Part shown: positions 1,289-61,638 of the stretch, one piece after another
Position numbering within the stretch: position 1 is the stretch's first letter
Layout: every line of letters begins with the position of its first letter
The notes under the pieces: generated by a model
What the model was told of the DNA's origin: nothing
What the model saw: the letters and a program-made list of their open reading frames with translations, nothing else
Database searches by the model: none
Translations under genes and position numbers: made by a program
DNA from: Natrialba asiatica DSM 12278
Lineage (GTDB): Archaea > Halobacteriota > Halobacteria > Halobacteriales > Natrialbaceae
NCBI RefSeq assembly: GCF_000337555.1
Contig: NZ_AOIO01000007.1
Coordinates: 84,293 to 148,292 of the forward strand
DNA length: 64,000 nucleotides
Direction: 5' to 3'

Positions 1289-1685
1289 GAGTACCTCACA
1301 GATGAGTTTACCGGGAAATAAATGCTTGCAGAACGCTCGGCTTGGCAACTCTTCGTTACGTTCGCTGACTAGTCAGCGAGCAGTAGGTACTGAGACCGAA
1401 CGGCGGTTCCGAGTGCACTCCTGCTGTTTTTCCTGTGCTCGGAGCGTCCTCGTCGGCGTCGGAACACGCCTCGGAAAGGGCTGTACGTCGGGCCACGGCG
1501 CTTGCGGAGTCGGCTCGCTGTCGAACACGTCGGTCACCCAGTACCGAGAGCACTCCCGAGACAGCGTCTAGCTAACTCCGTCGATCGATCGGCTCCGTTC
1601 AACCCGTGCGGAGCTACAAGTTCGGTCAGTAGTGTGACCGAACGCAGACTCTCCCGAGTTCACAGTCGTTTCGGATCGTAGAGGC
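1289..1685. other. Intergenic region with no convincing gene
   Basis: About 400 bases between the acetyltransferase start and the end of the DUF1801-type gene. It holds the promoter of the acetyltransferase at its left edge and the 40-base repeat copy at 1591-1630. No frame in it reads like a haloarchaeal protein. Confidence 0.6.
1591..1630 (+). repeat. GGCTC...TACAAGTT repeat, copy A
   Basis: A 40-base intergenic sequence starting GGCTCCGTTCAACC and containing GGAGCTACAAGTT. It matches a second copy at 16470-16510 in the blocks GGCTC, GTT, AACC, GGAG, TACAAGTT and CAGT, in the same orientation and register apart from a small indel. The GGCTCyGTTsAA start resembles insertion-sequence termini. 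No transposase lies next to this copy, so it may be a solo end or a small non-autonomous element remnant. That interpretation is inference. Confidence 0.5.
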
Positions 1686-2492
1686 TCACCAGCCCATCCC
1701 CGGATCATCGGCGGCCTGCCGGACCCAGGAAGCGACTTGCTCCTCGTCCAGCGTGTCCGTCTTCTTCAGGTCCAGTGCCTGTCTATCCGGGCCCGTCCCG
1801 CTGGGCGGCTCTGGATCGAGGTACGTTTCACACACGAATGTCAGTTTCACGTGTTTCGAGAACGCACTGAATGACGCGAACCATCCTTGGTCCTCGACGC
1901 CGTAGAACGGCTGGTGATACTTTACGGCGCGACGCACATGGGGCGCTTCCTGCTGAACGATCTGGTCGAATTGTGCCGCAACTTCATGCTTCCAATCCGG
2001 CAGCGCTGCAATGTACGCCTTCACCGCTGCCGATCCATCGGTATCATCCTTCCTCCGCGTCGCCTGGTATCGTTTCCTCCGTTCCTCCCATTCCTCCTCC
2101 GTCGGGACCTTGTCCGACAGCTCGATTTCCCCGACGTTCTCGTCCACGATGGTTTTCTCTCCCTCTCGACCTGATATCGCGGTCACGACCAAGATTTCGT
2201 CTGGCTCTTCGGGAGCAGAAAACAGGTCGAAGTCCAGCCGCAACGTCCCTCCTCGCCAGTGGCGGGCAAAGCCAACCCAGCCGTCGGGGTGGTCGTCCCG
2301 GGCGTCTTGTTCGACCCGGAAAAGCCCCATCAAGGCTGGAATGGCGTCGGCACCCCATTGAAGTCCCCGTTCCAGATCCGTGAAACGAACCCCTTCGTCG
2401 TGGTCGGCACGGTAGTTGGGCGCTCTGATTGCCCGATTCGCCATCACGAGTTCGGAGACTCGCTGGGTCGTAAGTGAGTCAGACACACTCAT
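1686..2492 (-). CDS. Haloarchaeal protein with C-terminal DUF1801-like domain
   Basis: A 268-residue acidic cytoplasmic protein. The C-terminal half (roughly residues 145-265) has the DUF1801/YdhG pattern: DGSAAVKAYIAALPDWKHEV, then HVRRAVKYHQPFYGVEDQGW, FSAFSKHVKLTF and a closing LKKTDTLDEEQVASWVRQA. Family members include proteins described as putative iron chaperones, but biochemical function is poorly known. The N-terminal half (GVRFTDLERGLQWGADAI...) is not recognised. The ATG at 2492 is preferred over the GTG at 2498 because a TATA-like TTGATAAACT lies about 27 bases upstream, as for leaderless haloarchaeal transcripts. Function uncertain. Confidence 0.75.
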   Translation of the reverse strand: MSVSDSLTTQRVSELVMANRAIRAPNYRADHDEGVRFTDLERGLQWGADAIPALMGLFRVEQDARDDHPDGWVGFARHWRGGTLRLDFDLFSAPEEPDEILVVTAISGREGEKTIVDENVGEIELSDKVPTEEEWEERRKRYQATRRKDDTDGSAAVKAYIAALPDWKHEVAAQFDQIVQQEAPHVRRAVKYHQPFYGVEDQGWFASFSAFSKHVKLTFVCETYLDPEPPSGTGPDRQALDLKKTDTLDEEQVASWVRQAADDPGMGW

Positions 2493-2816
2493 AGTCACTC
2501 ACCTACACGTGGTAGTAGTTTATCAATATTCCCCGGTTCTGGGGGAGCGGAGAGCCGTATTCCTCCTGGTGGGACAGAAAAGCAGACTTCACGGGAGTGC
2601 AATCCCCAAGCGATCCTTGCCGCCGGAGCCGTAGATCGTCACGACTCGCCTTATAAGGAGGGAAATTTCAATAGAACCGATCGATTCTGCCCCTGCCATA
2701 GCACAACGGGCGAGTGAACCTGGCCCGCTATCTCGCCTGCTCTCGTCGCTCTATTGCCAGTATTGTGCTCTTTATGCGAATACTTTTGAGCGCCGCGACC
2801 CTAGTACGGGTAACAG
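2493..2816. other. Divergent intergenic region
   Basis: About 320 bases between the divergent DUF1801-type gene and the HTH gene. It holds the minus-strand TATA near 2519 and a plus-strand ATACTTTTGA at 2781-2790 about 30 bases before the HTH start. No gene seen. Confidence 0.6.
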
Positions 2817-3251
2817 ATGGCTGACTCAATGAGCGAAATGCTCCGCCAGGACATGCAGTGTGAGGGGCTGCTGGAGTGTTTCCACGACCTCAAGGAGATT
2901 GACAAGGAGGTATTCCAATTGCTCAGCGACGAAGCGGAGCCGCTGACGGTCGACGAAATCGGCGACCACATCGATCGTGAGCGCTCGACGGCCTATCGCT
3001 CCGTCAACCGCTTGCTACAGGCCGGCTTCCTCCAGAAGGAGCAGATCAACTACGAACAGGGCGGATACTATCACGTCTATCACCCGCGAGATGCCGAGGA
3101 CATCTCCCAGGAGATGCAACGACTGCTCAACGACTGGTACGCAAAAATGGGCCAGCTGATCGCCGAGTTCAGCGAGACGTACGCCGTTGAACCGGAACCG
3201 GAATCGGAGTCAGAATCAGAATCTGAGCCGGTTGCATCTGCCGACCAGTAG
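2817..3251 (+). CDS. TrmB-like winged-helix transcriptional regulator
   Basis: A 144-residue DNA-binding protein. A winged helix-turn-helix covers about residues 35-85 (DKEVFQLLSDEAEPLTVDE, then STAYRSVNRLLQAGFLQKEQ), the arrangement used by TrmB-family and related archaeal regulators. The remainder is a helical DAEDISQEMQRLLNDWYAKM segment, likely for dimerisation, and a low-complexity acidic tail of repeated ES/EP residues ending near residue 138. It lacks the sugar-binding domain of full-length TrmB, so the effector is unknown. Stand-alone gene; the target could be itself or distant genes. Confidence 0.8.
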   Translation: MADSMSEMLRQDMQCEGLLECFHDLKEIDKEVFQLLSDEAEPLTVDEIGDHIDRERSTAYRSVNRLLQAGFLQKEQINYEQGGYYHVYHPRDAEDISQEMQRLLNDWYAKMGQLIAEFSETYAVEPEPESESESESEPVASADQ

Positions 3252-3412
3252 CTGTCGTGCTTCCTATCGTCACTACTCTACTGTCTCCGGTACTCCCTGT
3301 TTCCACGATATCCACGGCGGCGACGATAGCGATTTCCGAATGCTGTCCTCGTCCGCGGATGATCGCCCGTGGAGTCGAGGCGATCATCGTTAGCCACTAC
3401 TCACGGCCGATG

Positions 3413-4288
3413 CTACTCGCTCCGATCGATCCGATCGGACTGACCGAAACCCCCGTTAACCCCCGGTAACGTCGTCTGCGTGCCCCGCTGAAAGCGTCCC
3501 GTCTCCTTGACGTCGTAATTCATCACCAATCGCTCCGTCGCCGCCGTCGACCGACTCGCGTCGTCGTGTTGCTTGTTCATAAACTGCGAGCGGTCCTGTT
3601 CGACGACCGTATACTCCTCCAGCCGCGCCGGTAACCGCTGATACGATACTGCCCACCGTCCCTCGAGTTCACAAAGCGTCTCGACGAATCGCTCGTGATC
3701 GAACTCGCCGTGGCGATACAGGATGTCGCCCTCGTCGACGTACGGTGGATCGGCGTAGAAGAACGTCTGCTCCCCGTCGTACTGGGCCATGAGCTCGGCG
3801 TAATCGAGGTTCTCGATCTGCACGTTCTGAAAGCGCTCGGCGAACTCGTGGAGGTGTTCGGTCGCGTTGCGAAACTTGCGGGCCTTGTTTCGCTGGTTGG
3901 CGGCGGCGAAGCCGGAAGCGGTTCGGTACTTGGCGGCGTACTGGGAGTATCGGAGATAGAAGAAGCGTCCGGCGCGCTCGATGGGGCCGTCGGGTCGCTC
4001 GCCGTCGTAAAACGCCCGTTTCCACGCTTCGTGTTGTTCGCGAGCGTAGGGCGTTTGCTGGAGCCATTCGACGAGTTCGTCCTCGCGCTCGCGGAGGACG
4101 GTAAAGAACTGGACCAGATCGCCGTCACGGTCGTTGTAAACTTCGATGTGGCTCTCGTCTTTGGTGACGAGAACTGCTGCGCTGCCGCCGAAGACCTCGA
4201 CGTAGCACCTGTGGGGCGGAATGTGGTCGATAATCCACGGGGCGAGGTATGATTTGCCGCCGGGATAGGGGAACACCGACGTAGTCAC
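3413..4288 (-). CDS. DNA adenine methyltransferase, D12 class (Dam-like)
   Basis: Transfers a methyl group from S-adenosylmethionine to adenine in DNA. The protein has the D12-class order: FPYPGGKSYLAPWI near the N-terminus (SAM-binding FxYxGGK), CYVEVFGGSAAVL (motif I), and ADPPY (catalytic DPPY motif IV). The frame stays open upstream, but the GTG at 4288 is taken as start: it puts VFPYPGGK at the N-terminus, as in the family, and lies 27 bases from a TATAAT box at 4313-4318. That gives 291 residues. No restriction endonuclease is visible next to it, so it looks like an orphan methyltransferase; recognition sequence unknown. Neighbours give no functional clue. Confidence 0.88.
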   Translation of the reverse strand: MTTSVFPYPGGKSYLAPWIIDHIPPHRCYVEVFGGSAAVLVTKDESHIEVYNDRDGDLVQFFTVLREREDELVEWLQQTPYAREQHEAWKRAFYDGERPDGPIERAGRFFYLRYSQYAAKYRTASGFAAANQRNKARKFRNATEHLHEFAERFQNVQIENLDYAELMAQYDGEQTFFYADPPYVDEGDILYRHGEFDHERFVETLCELEGRWAVSYQRLPARLEEYTVVEQDRSQFMNKQHDDASRSTAATERLVMNYDVKETGRFQRGTQTTLPGVNGGFGQSDRIDRSE

Positions 4289-4310
4289 AGCGGTTTGTTT
4301 CGGGCCCGCC

Positions 4311-4320
4311 GTTATAATCC
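4311..4320 (-). promoter_or_regulatory. TATA box of the adenine methyltransferase
   Basis: GTTATAATCC (plus strand) centred 27 bases from the GTG at 4288, the spacing expected for a leaderless archaeal transcript. It decides the start codon choice. Confidence 0.6.
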
Positions 4321-4513
4321 CTCTCTTCGCCCGTCTTCGGTAGCGTGTTCCGCTGGCAGCGTGTGAGGGAGTCGGGATTCGCATCTCGGTCGCCGAGGTA
4401 ACGAGCAGAAGGCACGTGATTCGACGTTTGCAAGGGTCACTACTATTCCGAAACCCGCAGTACTTTTCGCCGTACGTCCGCCTTCTGGACAGCCTGCCCT
4501 CAAACGACGATCG

Positions 4514-5809
4514 ATGCCGAGTTCACTCCGTATGCAAGAGTTAAACATCGCACTCGTTACGATCGGTGCGCTCACACTGCTATTAAGCCTCGTTGCTGGA
4601 CTGATGCGAAACAAGGTCTACGTCGTTTCTGAACCGATGGCGGCGGTGATTCTGGGAATGGTGATCGGTCCTTTCGGTGTGGATCTTCTCGCGCTTGCAG
4701 GGTGGGGAGATCCGTTCACGATTCTGGAACAGTCCGCTCGGCTTACGGTGGGATTGGCCGTCATGGCCGCGGCGCTCCGGCTTCCACGGCGATATTTCAG
4801 AGCGAACGTGCGTCCGATGGCGGTCGTTCTTCTCCCGGGAATGATCGTGATGTGGCTTGTGAGTGGGATACTCGTTTATCTCTTCCTGAACGTCCCGCTC
4901 TGGACCGCGTTGCTTATCGGGGCGATCGTCACGCCCACCGACCCGGTTCTCGCGGGAACGATCGTTACGGGATCCGTAGCGGAGCAGGATATTCCGGCAT
5001 CGATCAGAAATTTTCTCAGCGGTGAAGCGGGAGCCAACGACGGACTCGCGTATCCGATCGTGTTTCTCCCGCTTCTCGTCCTCCAGCACTCGTCGGAGCG
5101 AGCGATTACCGAGTGGTTGTTCTCGACGTTGCTCTGGGAAGTCGGTGCCGCCGTGGTGATCGGCGCTACCGTCGGGACGGTTGCCGGCCGGATCGAACGC
5201 AAGTCCCGCGAGCACGATTTTCTCGAGGAGACCTCGTTACTTAGCGTAACTGTCGCCTTCACGTTTACCGTCCTGGGCGGAGTCAAACTGCTCGGAAGCG
5301 ACGGGATCCTGGCGGCGTTCGTAGCCGGGTTGTTGTTCAACCGGTTCGCAGATGCCCGCGATGAGGCCGACGAGCAAAAGGTCCAGGAGACGGTGCTTCG
5401 GCTGTTTACGTTCCCGATATTCGTCTTCTTCGGGATGGCGATCCCGATATCCGAGTGGCTTGCCCTAGGTTGGGCGGGAGTCGCCCTCGCGGCAAGTATC
5501 TTGCTCCTACGACGACTGCCGATGATGCTCTTGTTCCACCGGTACATTCGTCCGATCAACGACAGTCGTGATGCGCTTTTCGCGGGCTGGTTCGGCCCGA
5601 TCGGCATCGCGGCGCTCTTTTACGCGACGGTGGCCCATCGGATCCTCGGTATCGAACTCGTCTGGAGCGTGGCAACTCTCGTCATCGCGAGTTCGGTGCT
5701 GGTTCACGGCGTTACGGCGACGCCGTTTACGAAACTGTACGGACAGGTGATCGACCGCGATCATCCGCAGGCGGCCGACGACCAATCGTCGGCGTTCGCG
5801 GAGGGATAA
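4514..5809 (+). CDS. Na+(K+)/H+ antiporter, CPA1/NhaP family
   Basis: Membrane exchanger expected to expel sodium or potassium in return for protons. The 431-residue protein has 12 or so hydrophobic segments and ends in a short acidic tail. Family motifs are clear: AIVTPTDPVLAGTIVTG in the ion-translocation region and SGEAGANDGLAYP, whose Asn-Asp pair is the transport site of CPA1 exchangers. LLGSDGILAAFVAGLLFNR is a further conserved segment. A second ATG at 4532 (MQELNIALV) gives an equally plausible start. There is no regulatory TrkA-C domain. Such exchangers are common in haloarchaea for salt and pH balance. Confidence 0.9.
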   Translation: MPSSLRMQELNIALVTIGALTLLLSLVAGLMRNKVYVVSEPMAAVILGMVIGPFGVDLLALAGWGDPFTILEQSARLTVGLAVMAAALRLPRRYFRANVRPMAVVLLPGMIVMWLVSGILVYLFLNVPLWTALLIGAIVTPTDPVLAGTIVTGSVAEQDIPASIRNFLSGEAGANDGLAYPIVFLPLLVLQHSSERAITEWLFSTLLWEVGAAVVIGATVGTVAGRIERKSREHDFLEETSLLSVTVAFTFTVLGGVKLLGSDGILAAFVAGLLFNRFADARDEADEQKVQETVLRLFTFPIFVFFGMAIPISEWLALGWAGVALAASILLLRRLPMMLLFHRYIRPINDSRDALFAGWFGPIGIAALFYATVAHRILGIELVWSVATLVIASSVLVHGVTATPFTKLYGQVIDRDHPQAADDQSSAFAEG

Positions 5810-55821: not shown

Positions 55822-56577
55822 TTAAAACGTGACTAGAATAGCCGCGTAGACGAGTGCCCCGGAGACGAACGCCCAGAATCGACTCTCCCGAGTTCGTGGC
55901 AATTCGTCTTTGATCGCGTTGAACACGACGCCGCCCGTCAGGAGTCCGAGGAGGATCGTAAACAGCGCGTCATCCATCGTATAGACGGCTCCAATGACGG
56001 CTCCGACGACGACCGCGCTCGCGAGAATCCAGCGCCCCCGCTGCCTGTAGAGCATCTGGTAGTGCTGTTCCAGCGCCTCGTCGTTTCCGAAGAGGTGAAA
56101 CGCCATCGCAAACGCAAACAGCACCGTATTCTCCGTTCCCGTCTGCCCCTGAACCAGCACGTAGCCGATAAAGGCGTTGTAGACGACGAACCCGCCAATG
56201 TGAACCCAGAAGACGGGCTTGGAGATACCGACCTTCGACGCGACTGGGAGGGTATCCACGACGGTTGCGATCCGTTCGAGGCCGTAAAAGAGTGCAACAC
56301 CGACGAAAACGAGGATGTAGATGTGGTGCTCGGTGAGCGTTGCAATACCGAGTTCGACGCCGGCGAGCGACCCTCTGTGCGCATCGAGTTCAGGAAAGAG
56401 GTGGAGGAAGGCGTACACGAGCGAGATGCCGCCGGCTATCGAGAGGATACTGTGCCGAGAGATGCGCGTCGTTTCCGAGCGTATATCGGGCAGGAAATGA
56501 GCGAGCGCCACGCCGATGACGAGCAGGACGGTAAGGAGTGAACCACTCGTAGTGGTCGCGACCGCGGATGCATCCAT
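55822..56577 (-). CDS. ZIP-like integral membrane protein
   Basis: A 251-residue protein with about eight hydrophobic helices from the ATG at 56577 (MDASAVATTTSGSLLTVLLV). The arrangement resembles ZIP metal transporters: SLVYAFLHLFPELDAHRGSL holds a His/Glu cluster after an early helix, and HIGGFVVYNAFIGYVLV corresponds to the helix 4 region. The exact HNxxDG motif of ZIP proteins is not present, so transport of zinc or another divalent metal is only suggested. A repeat-rich site resembling DtxR-family operators lies about 240 bases upstream. Confidence 0.65.
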   Translation of the reverse strand: MDASAVATTTSGSLLTVLLVIGVALAHFLPDIRSETTRISRHSILSIAGGISLVYAFLHLFPELDAHRGSLAGVELGIATLTEHHIYILVFVGVALFYGLERIATVVDTLPVASKVGISKPVFWVHIGGFVVYNAFIGYVLVQGQTGTENTVLFAFAMAFHLFGNDEALEQHYQMLYRQRGRWILASAVVVGAVIGAVYTMDDALFTILLGLLTGGVVFNAIKDELPRTRESRFWAFVSGALVYAAILVTF

Positions 56578-57046
56578 CGGATGATACCCTTTGCGGTGCG
56601 TGATGCTCTCTCTTTCGGTGCGAATGCGGGTTAGTGCCGGACTACTGCTTCGTCTCCGTCGTCCCACCCCTGTAACCTGGTTTCTTTGTCGCCTTCCTTT
56701 CGTGGCGGACGACTAGTGAACTGATGAACTCGTGAACGGGAAGTACTTGCAGCGAACGCAGACTGACCAGTATCGCTAGTACGTGTTGGTACCCGATTCG
56801 GCTCAGTAGACGTATGAGTTAGGCTAACTAATTGGACTAATTGGTCAATCTAACTAATCAACATGCCTCTATAATCTTTCATCGAAATCGCTACACAGAG
56901 CAACGATCTGGTTGATTTGTCGCAGACGGCGTCGCAACCTCCTCATTTTGGCACCCGATCTCGATTAGTTCGTTCCGATTCGGGCGGTCGACGTGGTATG
57001 TTTTGCAAGCAGGCGCTTCTTCGTCCTTGTCGTGGAAGGTGAACTC
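56578..57046. other. Divergent regulatory region
   Basis: About 470 bases between the ZIP-like gene and glycerol dehydrogenase, which share it as a promoter region. Its middle (56818-56863) contains the repeated CTAACTAAT elements described separately. No gene seen. Confidence 0.5.
56818..56863. promoter_or_regulatory. Tandem CTAACTAAT / TTAGGCTAAC elements, candidate metal-regulator operator
   Basis: The site includes a perfect palindrome GTTAG-G-CTAAC (56818-56828), a near-palindrome GACTAATTGGTC (56835-56846) and two direct copies of CTAACTAAT (56824-56832 and 56850-56858) 26 bases apart. TTAG-N5-CTAA is the kind of pattern bound by DtxR/IdeR/SirR-type regulators. Location upstream of a possible metal transporter supports that, but no regulator gene is adjacent. 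Confidence 0.45.
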
Positions 57047-58138
57047 GTGATTCGATCGTTTAAATCTCCGATGGAGTACGTCCAAGGACGCGACGCGCTA
57101 CGTCAGCTCGGCGACCAAGTCGCACCGATCGCGGAGACGGCGCTGGTGATCGGCGATTCGGACGTTCTCGGGATCGTCGGCGACCGAGCCGAAGCGAGTC
57201 TCGAGGAAAGCGACGTCGATGCGACGCTCGAGGAGTTCGGTGGGGAGGCCTCCGAGACGGAGATCGACCGGATAACGGAGGTCGCCCGGGAGATCGACGC
57301 GGACGCGATCGTCGGTGCCGGCGGCGGGAAAGGGCTCGATACGGCCAAAGCCGTTCGGGAGAACGTGGGCGGGGCGATGGTTTCGATGCCGACGATCGCC
57401 TCGACCGATTCGCCGACCTCGAGCCTGTCCGTGATCTACTCCGAAGACGGCGAGTTCGAACGGTACCGCTTCTACGAGTCGCATCCGGACGTGGTGCTCG
57501 TCGACACGTCGGTTATCGCCGGTGCGCCCGTTCGATTCCTCACGTCGGGGATCGCGGACGCGATGGCAACGTGGTTTGAGGCCGATGCGGTTCACAGGAC
57601 CGGCGGCGCGAACTTCTTCGACGAGGATCCCACCTACGCCGCACACTCGCTCTCGAGCCTCTGCTATGACCTGTTGCGGGATCACGCCGTGTCGTCGATA
57701 CGGGCCGTCGAAAACGGCATCGTCACCGAGAGCGTTGAAGCGGTCGTCGAGGCGAACACCCTGCTGAGTGGACTCGGATTCGAGAACGGCGGTCTCGCGG
57801 CCGCCCACTCGATCCACAACGGACTCACACAACTCGAAGATACTCACCACGCAACCCACGGCGAGAAGGTGAACTTCGGGACGCTCACGCAACTCGTCCT
57901 CGAAGGACGAAGCAACGCCTTCATCGAGGACATCATCGACTTCTCGGTAGCCGCCGATCTTCCCGTGACGCTCGCCGAACTCGGCGTCGACAACCCCTCA
58001 CAGGACGATCTCGACCGCGTTGCGCAGGCGACCGTCGCCGACGAGGAAACCATCCACAACGCGTTCGACGTCAGCAGCGACGAGGTCCGCGACGCGATGA
58101 TCGCGGCCGATGAACTCGGCTCCAAACGGCTGGCGTAG
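57047..58138 (+). CDS. gldA: Glycerol dehydrogenase (iron-containing ADH superfamily)
   Basis: NAD-dependent oxidation of glycerol to dihydroxyacetone. The 363-residue protein has GAGGGKGLDTAKAVRENVGG (NAD-binding GGGKxxDxAK), MPTIASTDSPTSSLSV, and zinc ligands in SGIADAMATWFEAD (Asp), AAAHSIHNGL (His) and HATHGEKVNFG (His). The GTG at 57047 is chosen because GGAAGGTGA, a good Shine-Dalgarno match, lies a few bases upstream; this is rare in the window. A GTG at 57032 is an alternative. Glycerol from Dunaliella is a known carbon source for haloarchaea. An aldehyde dehydrogenase gene lies 1.2 kb downstream. Confidence 0.9.
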   Translation: MIRSFKSPMEYVQGRDALRQLGDQVAPIAETALVIGDSDVLGIVGDRAEASLEESDVDATLEEFGGEASETEIDRITEVAREIDADAIVGAGGGKGLDTAKAVRENVGGAMVSMPTIASTDSPTSSLSVIYSEDGEFERYRFYESHPDVVLVDTSVIAGAPVRFLTSGIADAMATWFEADAVHRTGGANFFDEDPTYAAHSLSSLCYDLLRDHAVSSIRAVENGIVTESVEAVVEANTLLSGLGFENGGLAAAHSIHNGLTQLEDTHHATHGEKVNFGTLTQLVLEGRSNAFIEDIIDFSVAADLPVTLAELGVDNPSQDDLDRVAQATVADEETIHNAFDVSSDEVRDAMIAADELGSKRLA

Positions 58139-58162
58139 CTCGGTTATTCTCTTTCAGAAGTA

Positions 58163-58170
58163 TTTATATA
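58163..58170 (+). promoter_or_regulatory. TATA box of the Spo0M-like gene
   Basis: TTTATATA about 32 bases before the ATG at 58198; the gene would have a leader of only a few bases. The remaining promoter shows the deleted gene may still be transcribed. Confidence 0.55.
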
Positions 58171-58197
58171 CTAACGAGAGACACGTCAAAACGGAGT

Positions 58198-58677
58198 ATG
58201 AAGAATGTCCTCGCGAGCATCGGTATCGGCAACGTCACTGTAGACACCGTCCTTCCGACGGAAACGGAACTCGATATCGATCTCGCCGTCGATCCCGAAG
58301 ACAAAGATTACCTCACCGTCAAGCCCACACCCCGCCTTCAGACCGTCTTCGACGCGATGGACGACCTCGGCTTTTCCCTCCGAAGTGCAGAGTGTGAGGC
58401 GGATCCATACGGGCGGTACACAAGCGGCCGTCGGTTCGTCCAGGAATTCGAATTCCGGCCCGAGTCGGGCCGATTCCGCGACAGCCTCGACGAAGTCGAA
58501 CTCATCGCCAAGCCCGGCCCGGATGAACTCGAATTATTCGTCGAGGTCGATCGCCGGGGCGGCCTTCTGAGCGAAATGACTGATACGGACGAACGCAATG
58601 CACGGACGACGATTCGCTCAACGGATCGAAAAACGATTCGTGACGAATTGGCCGCGCTCATCGAAACACACGCCTGA
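58198..58677 (+). CDS. Spo0M-family (sporulation-control-like) protein with internal deletion
   Basis: A 159-residue protein. The N-terminus MKNVLASIGIGNVTVDTVLP and the second half (AVDPEDKDYLTVKPTPRLQT, RFVQEFEFRPESGRFRDSLD, ELELFVEVDRRGGLLSEM) match Spo0M. That family has an arrestin-like fold and members of about 250 residues. The roughly 95 residues that should lie between VLPTETE and LDIDLAVDPED, which form most of the first beta-sandwich, are missing. The reading frame is maintained. Function of Spo0M in archaea is unknown; with half of the first domain lost, this copy is probably impaired. Confidence 0.8.
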   Translation: MKNVLASIGIGNVTVDTVLPTETELDIDLAVDPEDKDYLTVKPTPRLQTVFDAMDDLGFSLRSAECEADPYGRYTSGRRFVQEFEFRPESGRFRDSLDEVELIAKPGPDELELFVEVDRRGGLLSEMTDTDERNARTTIRSTDRKTIRDELAALIETHA

Positions 58678-59335
58678 CGCGGACTATCAGGTACGTGCCG
58701 TAGGGAGGGACTCTGGACGAAGACGCGTTTATTGAACTCGTCGTCTCGGCTCTGTCGCCCACCCGGCGAAGTCCGCAAGCGGATCGTCCGATCATATCCG
58801 TCTCGGTACTGAATAATCCGTTTGTACCGTTCGTTGCATCCTACTACTCGTATTTACTATATGTATGTGTACTAGGTATGGTCTACTTATATAACATTAT
58901 TTCATTCAGTAATATAAATAATTTCACCTCTAAGAAGCCTCTCTGACGGGAATACGACGTAAATTAAATGAAACTTTATGGAAGAGCGATCGAAAACACT
59001 GCTCTTCGTTAATATCTAATTCTCTATATAGTGTACGTCAAATCAGAATTTCGTTATGTATTGATCGCTATCTTTGAGCGCGGTCAAGAAACATCTCTCG
59101 CGATCACGACGCCGTCTCGGAACAGGCGCTTCGCGCGTAGACGAGTTCGTTTTCCTCGTACGTCGTCCGCCGTCGATCGCGAACGAGCGAGCGTGAGTCC
59201 GGTGGTGATCGCTGTAGCCCGCCGATTCTCGCCTTGTCGTATTATTGTCTCCGTTACTGTCCGAGCGCTGTAAACCGGCGCCGATTTCCCCGTTCTCGCC
59301 CCTTTTCCCTGCTCAGACCGTTTGATAACATACCG
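58678..59335. other. AT-rich intergenic region
   Basis: About 660 bases; 58850-59040 is very AT-rich with several TATA-like runs. It contains the 17-base sequence shared with 17506-17522 (at 59055-59071). No gene recognised. Confidence 0.5.
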
Positions 59336-60826
59336 ATGTCGGACGAGATCACAATCGACGAGGACTGGGATACACTATACGTCGACGGCGAATGGATCCC
59401 GAGCGAGAGCGGTGAAACGATTTCCGTCGAGGACCCCTCGACCCGTGAGGAGATCACGGAGGTTCCCGCTGGGACGGACGCAGACGTCGATGCTGCATAC
59501 GAGGCCGCAGCAAACGCACAGACCGAGTGGGCGGCCCACCCTCCGGCACGTCGCCAGGAGGTCATCGAACAGTTCCTCCGCGTGATTCAAGCGCACCGGG
59601 AAGAGATCATCGAACTGCTGGAGTACGAGGTCGGCGGCTCGCGCATCATGGGCGAAACCTCCCTCCAGATCGCCTCCGATCACGCGAGCGAGGCTGCGAC
59701 GCTCCCGCGTCGGATGAAAGGCGAGCACGTCGCGTCTAACATCCCCGGGAAGGAAAACCTCGTCCAGCGCGAACCCACGGGCGTCGTCACGGTAATTTCG
59801 CCGTGGAACTTTCCGCTGAACCTCTCGATGCGCGCCGTCGCGCCCGCCATTGCCGCCGGCAACGCGGTCGTGCTCAAGCCCTCGACGAACTCGCCCATCA
59901 CCGGCGGGCTCCTCTTCGCCACGCTCTTCGAGGAAACGGACCTCCCGGATGGCGTGCTGAACGTCGTCACCGGTCGCGGCTCCGCCATCGGCGACCGCGT
60001 CGCCAGCCATCCCGAGAGCGACGTCGTCGCCTTTACCGGCTCGACCGAAGTCGGTCAGCACGTCGCCAGCCTCGCGGGAGAGAACCTCGCCGTCCCCGCG
60101 ATGGAACTCGGCGGGAACAACGCTCACGTCGTCACCGCCGACGCCGACCTCGACCGCGCCATCGACGGTGCGACGTTCGGGTCGTTCGTCCACCAGGGAC
60201 AAGTTTGTATCAGTATCAATCGCCACATCGTCCACGAGGACATCTACGACGAATACGTCGATCGTCTGACCGAGCGCGCGGAGGCGCTTCCGGTCGGCAG
60301 CGCACACGACGAGGAGACGATCGTCGGGCCGATCATCGACGAGTCACAGCGCGACGAGATGCTCGGCTACGTCGAGGAGACCGTCGACGCGGGTGCAACG
60401 CTCCAGACCGGCGGCGAAACCGTCGCCCTCGATGACGGCGCAGACTCTCTCGTCGTCGCGCCCACCGTCCTCTCCGGCGTCACCAACGACATGGCCGCCG
60501 CGTGTAACGAACACTTCGGCCCGATCGCCCCGGTCATTCCGTTCTCGGATATCGATGAGGCCGTCGCACTCGCTAACGATACGGAGTTCGGTCTCTCGGG
60601 TGCAGTCCACGCCGGCGACCTCGAGGTCGCAAAGGAGATCGCCGACCGAATGGAAACGGGGAACGTTCACATTAACGACCAACCCATCAACGACGAAGCT
60701 CACGTCCCCTTCAGCGGTATCGGGGCCTCCGGGATGGGAACGTACAACAGCGATGCGTTCCTCCGCGAGATCACCGAGACGAAGTGGATCTCGATCCAAC
60801 ACGAGTCTCGAGATTACCCCTTCTAA
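59336..60826 (+). CDS. Aldehyde dehydrogenase (NAD(P)-dependent)
   Basis: Oxidises an aldehyde to the acid (496 residues). Motifs in order are VVTVISPWNFPLNLSMRAVA (coenzyme binding), VVAFTGSTEVGQHVA, AMELGGNNAHVVTADADLD (general-base Glu), GSFVHQGQVCISINRHIV (catalytic Cys in GQVC) and FGPIAPVIPFSDIDEAVAL. The start at 59336 (MSDEITIDEDWDTLYVDGEW) is the family start; the longer open frame is not coding-like. Relatives include vanillin/benzaldehyde-type and lactaldehyde-type dehydrogenases. It may act with glycerol dehydrogenase nearby, but this is speculative. Confidence 0.9.
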   Translation: MSDEITIDEDWDTLYVDGEWIPSESGETISVEDPSTREEITEVPAGTDADVDAAYEAAANAQTEWAAHPPARRQEVIEQFLRVIQAHREEIIELLEYEVGGSRIMGETSLQIASDHASEAATLPRRMKGEHVASNIPGKENLVQREPTGVVTVISPWNFPLNLSMRAVAPAIAAGNAVVLKPSTNSPITGGLLFATLFEETDLPDGVLNVVTGRGSAIGDRVASHPESDVVAFTGSTEVGQHVASLAGENLAVPAMELGGNNAHVVTADADLDRAIDGATFGSFVHQGQVCISINRHIVHEDIYDEYVDRLTERAEALPVGSAHDEETIVGPIIDESQRDEMLGYVEETVDAGATLQTGGETVALDDGADSLVVAPTVLSGVTNDMAAACNEHFGPIAPVIPFSDIDEAVALANDTEFGLSGAVHAGDLEVAKEIADRMETGNVHINDQPINDEAHVPFSGIGASGMGTYNSDAFLREITETKWISIQHESRDYPF

Positions 60827-61130
60827 GGGGCCCTCGGCCGTCATCCCGTCTCTCGTATTCGGAACACTGGATCGCTCCCCTCGCTAGCAGTGTGAGTACG
60901 ACCGGAGAGAAATCCGTTTTTTGACGTCGACTCTCGAGATACCACGGCGTACTGCTTCGGTTTCGAACGGTTTCAGGCTCCGAGAATTGGCGACTCCAGA
61001 ATCGTACTACAAACGAAATACGGCACATAAGGCCCCAAAAGGGGATCGTTAACGGAATAGAGTTCAGTAAGTGTGCCGCTGCTACTCCCGTTTATGACGT
61101 TTATTGTCGCCGGTATAGCGTGTACGTAGC
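60827..61130. other. Intergenic region after aldehyde dehydrogenase
   Basis: About 300 bases with a T-tract (60917-60922) that could terminate the aldehyde dehydrogenase transcript. No gene seen. Confidence 0.5.
60917..60922 (+). terminator. T-tract, candidate terminator
   Basis: TTTTTT about 90 bases after the aldehyde dehydrogenase stop; candidate archaeal T-rich terminator without a preceding strong hairpin. Confidence 0.3.
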
Positions 61131-61383
61131 GGGCATCTCACTCTCACTCTCCGACGCTACGCCGTTCTCGCGGTTCGGTGGTGGCTCGTCGAGGGCCTCA
61201 GTGGTCTGATTCCGCTTGCGGTCGTCACGAACCCGCCGGAGTTCGTCATCGCGACCAGCGCGGCGCTCAGTGACAATCTGCCTTGGCCACCGGGAACATC
61301 CTCGGCCTGCTGTTCGTTACTTCCTGATCTCGCTATACGCAGCAAGACACCTGCCGAACACAGTGAACCAACGCCGCCTGTGA
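61131..61383 (+). pseudogene. Frameshifted remnant of a CaCA-type cation exchanger
   Basis: Three consecutive pieces in different plus-strand frames read as one membrane protein. The first is LVEGLSGLIPLAVVTNPPEF with VIATSAALSDN, the second ALATGNILGLLFVTS (from 61280), and the third LISLYAARHLPNTVNQRRL and TGA (61381-61383). Joined, they resemble the alpha-repeat of Na+/Ca2+ exchanger-family proteins, where a GTSxPE helix leads into a GNxxGSN helix. Two single-base losses (near 61280 and 61321) break the frame, and the rest of the gene is absent upstream. Non-functional remnant. Confidence 0.5.
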
Positions 61384-61638
61384 TCGATTCATCCGTCACA
61401 GATACGTGCGCTGCCGTCACTACGGCTTCGCTTCCCTCCCCGGTGGCTGATACCCTCAGCTGTCGTTCGCCATCCATTCTCCGAGGTGTTATTGGGAAAA
61501 TAACGAAAACAACTCCACTCTCGTCGATGGCGGCACAGATCGACCGTTTCTGCTCGGTCTCTCCCCATCCGGAACGCAAGTTCCGATGGCGCGCCGGTTC
61601 GCACGGATCCGTTCTTCCCCTGCTTCACGTTCGAGCGG

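Follow-up and report, generated by a model that had tools for sequence, protein, structure and literature searches.

A Spo0M gene of Natrialba asiatica that lacks 86 codons, in frame, from its arrestin-like domain

The 64,000-nucleotide stretch of Natrialba asiatica DSM 12278 DNA analysed here (the window) contains a spo0M gene with an in-frame deletion. Its product joins an N-terminal stub of 21–23 residues to the intact C-terminal domain of Spo0M. The best explanation, which we hold to be probable though well short of certain, is that a gained spo0M gene lost 258 bp in one recent deletion between repeats, and that its normal role has most likely gone. The features of the locus are collected in Table 1.

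Table 1. Coordinates of features at the spo0M locus (window positions)
Feature	Position	Strand	Remarks
Iron-containing alcohol dehydrogenase family gene (upstream neighbour)	56993..58138	+	Start codon not settled
TATA-like box, TTTATATA	58163..58170	+	Sequence, and alignment with four relatives
549-bp stretch holding spo0M	58167..58715	+	Absent in the closest congener, G005
Truncated spo0M reading frame, 159 aa	58198..58677	+	ATG at 58198, stop at 58677; reading frame, Pfam search, alignment
Deletion junction, GAAACGG	58261..58267	+	258 bp missing, residues 24–109 of full-length relatives
Aldehyde dehydrogenase family gene (downstream neighbour)	59336..60826	+	

The first-pass annotation was right about the reading frame itself: its coordinates, length and identity are borne out, with a score of 128.2 bits against the Pfam Spo0M model PF07070 (cut-off 23). 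In a profile search of the genome the match does not cover the whole 213-position profile. It consists of two stretches in the same frame, profile positions 1–22 and 115–213. The annotation had also claimed an in-frame loss of about 95 middle residues; the single in-frame gap is there, but it is smaller, exactly 86 codons in nine of nine comparisons with close full-length relatives. A single gap likewise appears in a DNA alignment of the window gene with four of the nearest spo0M genes. Searches of the genome for a full-length paralogue, a check that the annotation had proposed, found none: besides the gene itself, the protein query returned one match at E 0.277, and the Pfam model returned one other match (E 0.0125), below the cut-off.

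Comparison with related genomes indicates that spo0M is probably a newcomer in the window's lineage. A family search found no Spo0M in any of six congeners. In the closest of these, G005, the upstream flank is identical to the window at 1123 of 1173 bases, and the sequence then passes from window position 58166 to 58716 with one base between. Past 58716, identity to G005 is just 75% over the next 124 columns, after which the two sequences part, making this a variable site. (Window positions 58836–61456 are replaced in G005 by about 760 bp of different sequence.) Eight further family loci carry an alcohol dehydrogenase gene 79–90% identical to that of the window; none has spo0M in the roughly 1.5 kb downstream, and the 29 family genomes with a Spo0M match include none of these eight. 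The closest spo0M genes come from two further genera of the family (L072 and L076). They resemble the window gene in their leader and in the C-terminal part (83% identity), but encode 245 residues at full length and have other neighbourhoods: one is near a tRNA-synthetase-like gene, the other between MutS and NucS genes. We infer that the window's lineage more likely gained the gene than G005 lost it. Loss keeps some standing, since the surroundings of the 549-bp stretch show no sign of an insertion; the longest word shared there is 5 bp.

Two other ideas about the locus were set aside. A functional link with the neighbouring dehydrogenases was dropped because no alcohol dehydrogenase gene was found near other spo0M genes, and a viral origin was dropped because no relative occurred among 14 pattern-matching stretches of viral contigs. 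Plasmid relatives do exist, in 22 records; the best two by identity are from Halocatena salina (73.2%) and Halorarius halobius (71.3%), over 86–87% of the query. The intergenic stretch between spo0M and the aldehyde dehydrogenase gene is AT-rich at window positions 58750–59124, with a GC content of 0.37–0.41 against 0.58 in spo0M and 0.64 in the aldehyde dehydrogenase gene.

The junction suggests how the deletion may have arisen. At the join, the window reads GAA ACG GAA CTC, for Glu-Thr-Glu-Leu. The C-side end in relatives encodes Glu-Thr or Asp-Thr; the N-side end encodes, in the same phase, Glu-, Asp-, Ala-, Ser- or Thr-Thr in most relatives, although Natrinema-like genes differ. Shared sequence at the two ends was evaluated in a set of 59 relatives, kept after 17 loci lacking a gene by the start and length pattern, together with repeats, had been dropped; 50 of the 59 have the junction pattern, and 35 have a spacing of exactly 258 bp. 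The short direct repeats that the first-pass annotation had advised looking for are present in many relatives, with 4–8 bases in common. At least four bases are common to both ends in 25 of the 50 relatives and one base or none in the other 25, while six of the 50 share seven or eight (eight, for example, in Haloferax elongans, L018). With 258-bp spacing, at least four bases are shared in 24 of 35, and the mean shared run is 3.8 at the junction compared with 1.04 elsewhere at the same spacing, figures that come from relatives that are not independent. The junction is not unique in this respect: exact repeats of at least 8 bases at in-frame spacings of 240–275 bp occur in two of 3,814 site pairs in L018, and once, away from the junction, in L017. 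Among the three nearest relatives, L076 shares four bases at the ends, and L072 and L017 just one; a repeat is therefore a plausible cause, and the actual ancestor need not have carried a longer one.

These observations suggest a model in which the window's lineage gained a Haloferax-type spo0M beside the alcohol dehydrogenase gene, and in which one deletion of 258 bp between short direct repeats took place either after the gain or already in the donor. The route might be replication slippage or microhomology-mediated end joining. Haloferax volcanii is described as joining cut plasmids through 3–5 bp of microhomology, with deletions of 6–977 bp (PMC2700283). This species, one of the control genomes in the family search, also has a Spo0M match. 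Loss of the arrestin-like domain would most likely have ended the normal Spo0M role, and the frame would still be open for want of time since the deletion. The first-pass annotation read the preserved frame as a hint of function. This argument fails: because both ends are in the same codon phase, any deletion between the repeats preserves the frame automatically, and an open frame carries no information on function.

The promoter is likely intact. Alignment places the TATA-like box and the leader before the start codon at the same position as in four relatives, and the first four bases of the box belong to sequence common to the window and the congener that lacks spo0M here. A scan for bacterial-type promoters and terminators, whose scope does not extend to archaeal promoters, gave chance numbers, and no RNA families were found in 56500–60000.

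What was lost is nearly the whole arrestin-like N-terminal domain; what was kept is a separate alpha/beta C-terminal domain. The modelled full-length relative L018 (mean pLDDT 82.3) has an N-terminal beta domain followed by the alpha/beta domain. This model has seven strands up to residue 113; five fall wholly within the deletion, and a sixth is cut. The L018 N-terminal domain matches Vps26 (3lh9_A: Z 12.9, rmsd 2.4, 117 residues) and arrestin (1jsy: Z 12.2, rmsd 2.5, 125 residues), but two other beta-sandwich proteins score nearly as well: protein 4.2 (7uzs: Z 12.0, rmsd 2.8, 109 residues) and RbmA (4be6_A: Z 11.7, rmsd 2.6, 106 residues). The fold by itself thus does not single out arrestins. 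A published sequence comparison places Spo0M in the arrestin clan, as its archaeal and bacterial branch (PMC2515105).

The short protein was modelled with a mean pLDDT of 76.9. Residues 1–30 fall under 50, whereas from residue 41 the ten-residue blocks mostly lie at 83–97, with dips to 72 and 69. The modelled product would thus consist of the C-terminal domain on its own, preceded by an unfolded head. Its C-terminal domain matches the Bacillus subtilis Spo0M structure 5cl2 (Foldseek E 1.0e-7), with which the short protein also shares its start and the conserved residues of that domain. The short protein aligns to 5cl2_A at Z 13.5 (rmsd 3.5, 131 residues) and full-length L018 at Z 23.6 (rmsd 2.6, 225 residues); the difference from B. 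subtilis Spo0M is the absence of 86 residues, almost the whole arrestin-like domain. B. subtilis Spo0M is described as controlling sporulation and as occurring in one complex with FtsZ (PMC5325327). By calling the lost part the first arrestin-like domain, the annotation implied a second. The name holds for the lost domain, but among the matches listed the retained one has only Spo0M and, weakly, proteins other than arrestins, although it may still have a remote arrestin link. Model residues 43–159 weakly resemble the FP dimerisation domain (Fbxo7, PI31) and actin capping protein, at Z of about 6–7: Fbxo7 4l9h, Z 7.0, rmsd 3.3, 93 residues; CapZ 8f8q_G, Z 6.8, rmsd 3.5, 91 residues. Common arrangements also score in this range.

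Sequence comparison in three samples indicates that the short form is a derived state. Spo0M matches occur in 92 of the 392 genomes of the order sample, and among the matches listed the window holds the sole short form without a stop or insertion. Stop-to-stop frames of these listed matches are at least 243 aa, the exceptions being the window (187), the interrupted gene of G029 (226) and the gene of G252 (137), which contains one TAG; in G289, a TGA occurs in two copies. Frame length is a mere stand-in for presence of the N-terminal half, and profile searches agree with it. In the family sample, 29 of 125 genomes match, and the best match falls short of the near-full profile in the window and G029 only. 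In the phylum sample, where 15 of 392 genomes match, the other 14 span the profile from 1–4 to 212–213 and the window alone is short.

The broken genes of the haloarchaea G029, G252 and G289 resemble the window gene in that an accessory gene has lost its intact frame. They differ in the manner of breakage: by an insertion with a TnpB-like reading frame in G029 and by internal stops in G252 and G289, against a clean in-frame deletion in the window. In G029 (locus L102, C2:715500-722500), the split gene is at 1594-4581, and the insertion, with its TnpB-like frame (PF07282), leaves profile positions 1–49 on one side and 47–213 on the other. Two other genomes of the family have paired adjacent spo0M genes (G061 C1:390434-391883; G065 C1:2312654-2314064).

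The retained half of the window gene appears to be under no clearly relaxed constraint, which speaks against long neutral decay. Conservation and the protein tree were evaluated with 56 relatives (L012, L013 and L044 were left out of the 59). With a threshold of 98% of these or more, 37 positions count as conserved, and the window gene has changed at just one of them (A13V, in the stub); with this one change it ranks second among the 57 sequences by number of changes, where the others average 0.23. When the threshold is 90%, it shows one change at 50 positions and ranks 14th of 57 (others average 0.98). The dN/dS set comprised 15 relatives picked as near ones. Values of the window to L072, L076 and L017 are low, at 0.113, 0.129 and 0.134, slightly above those among the three themselves (0.109, 0.105 and 0.084), ratios that are rough because dS to these relatives is already 0.81–0.86. 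No significant acceleration emerged in any of 15 relative-rate comparisons (chi-square at most 1.80). Branch lengths in the protein tree are 0.115 for the window, 0.066 for L072, 0.059 for L076 and 0.127 for L017, with weak support nearby (44–88). Since most of this divergence may predate the deletion, constraint fits either a recent deletion or a working short protein and cannot separate the two.

The absence of visible decay in the C-terminal part, by conserved positions, dN/dS and relative rates alike, counts against a recent deletion with loss of role, and lends some weight to a functional short protein, a possibility we regard as considerably less probable. Here the C-terminal domain would work alone, for example as a competitor of contacts like those of full-length Spo0M, or as an unregulated form; its conserved residues, its good model without the N-terminal domain, and the TATA-like box and leader all agree with this. 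However, a clean short form is known from one genome only among the matches listed in the family, order and phylum samples, the stub is altered at an otherwise conserved residue, the dN/dS values just given lean slightly upward, and all six congeners manage without any Spo0M. A recent deletion remains our first choice over a working short protein.

An ancestral short form, or one that makes up a separate old family, is very improbable: all 27 relatives in the set of the nine close ones are 241–247 aa (one alignment, A1, used 25 of them, without L030 and L042), no second clean short form appeared among the matches listed in the three samples, and the protein tree places the window beside full-length L072, L076 and L017, if with the weak support noted. 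The set of 59 relatives, at 241–256 aa, is not separate evidence on length, because only frames of 201–289 aa were accepted. Improbable too, if somewhat less so, is an error of assembly or consensus, in which the gene is really full length, or a cell carries the two forms side by side. The draft assembly has 49 contigs, and haloarchaea are often polyploid. But about 91 kb separate the gene from the nearer end of its 233,812-bp contig, and an assembler working with usual word lengths would not be misled by shared ends of no more than 7–8 bp.

On the preferred account of gain and recent deletion, genome evolution here would be ordinary: an accessory gene was probably gained, then trimmed by a deletion between short repeats. 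Most probably the change is an isolated, local one in a single gene, and no new type of system is involved. Among the literature matches listed, no title names haloarchaeal Spo0M work or a truncated Spo0M. To our knowledge, the division of work between the two Spo0M domains is not settled, and a natural one-domain deletion provides a ready tool for probing what the remaining domain can do by itself. A free-standing Spo0M C-terminal domain, still expressed and under selection, is rather unlikely here; were it so, the domain could act without its arrestin-like partner.
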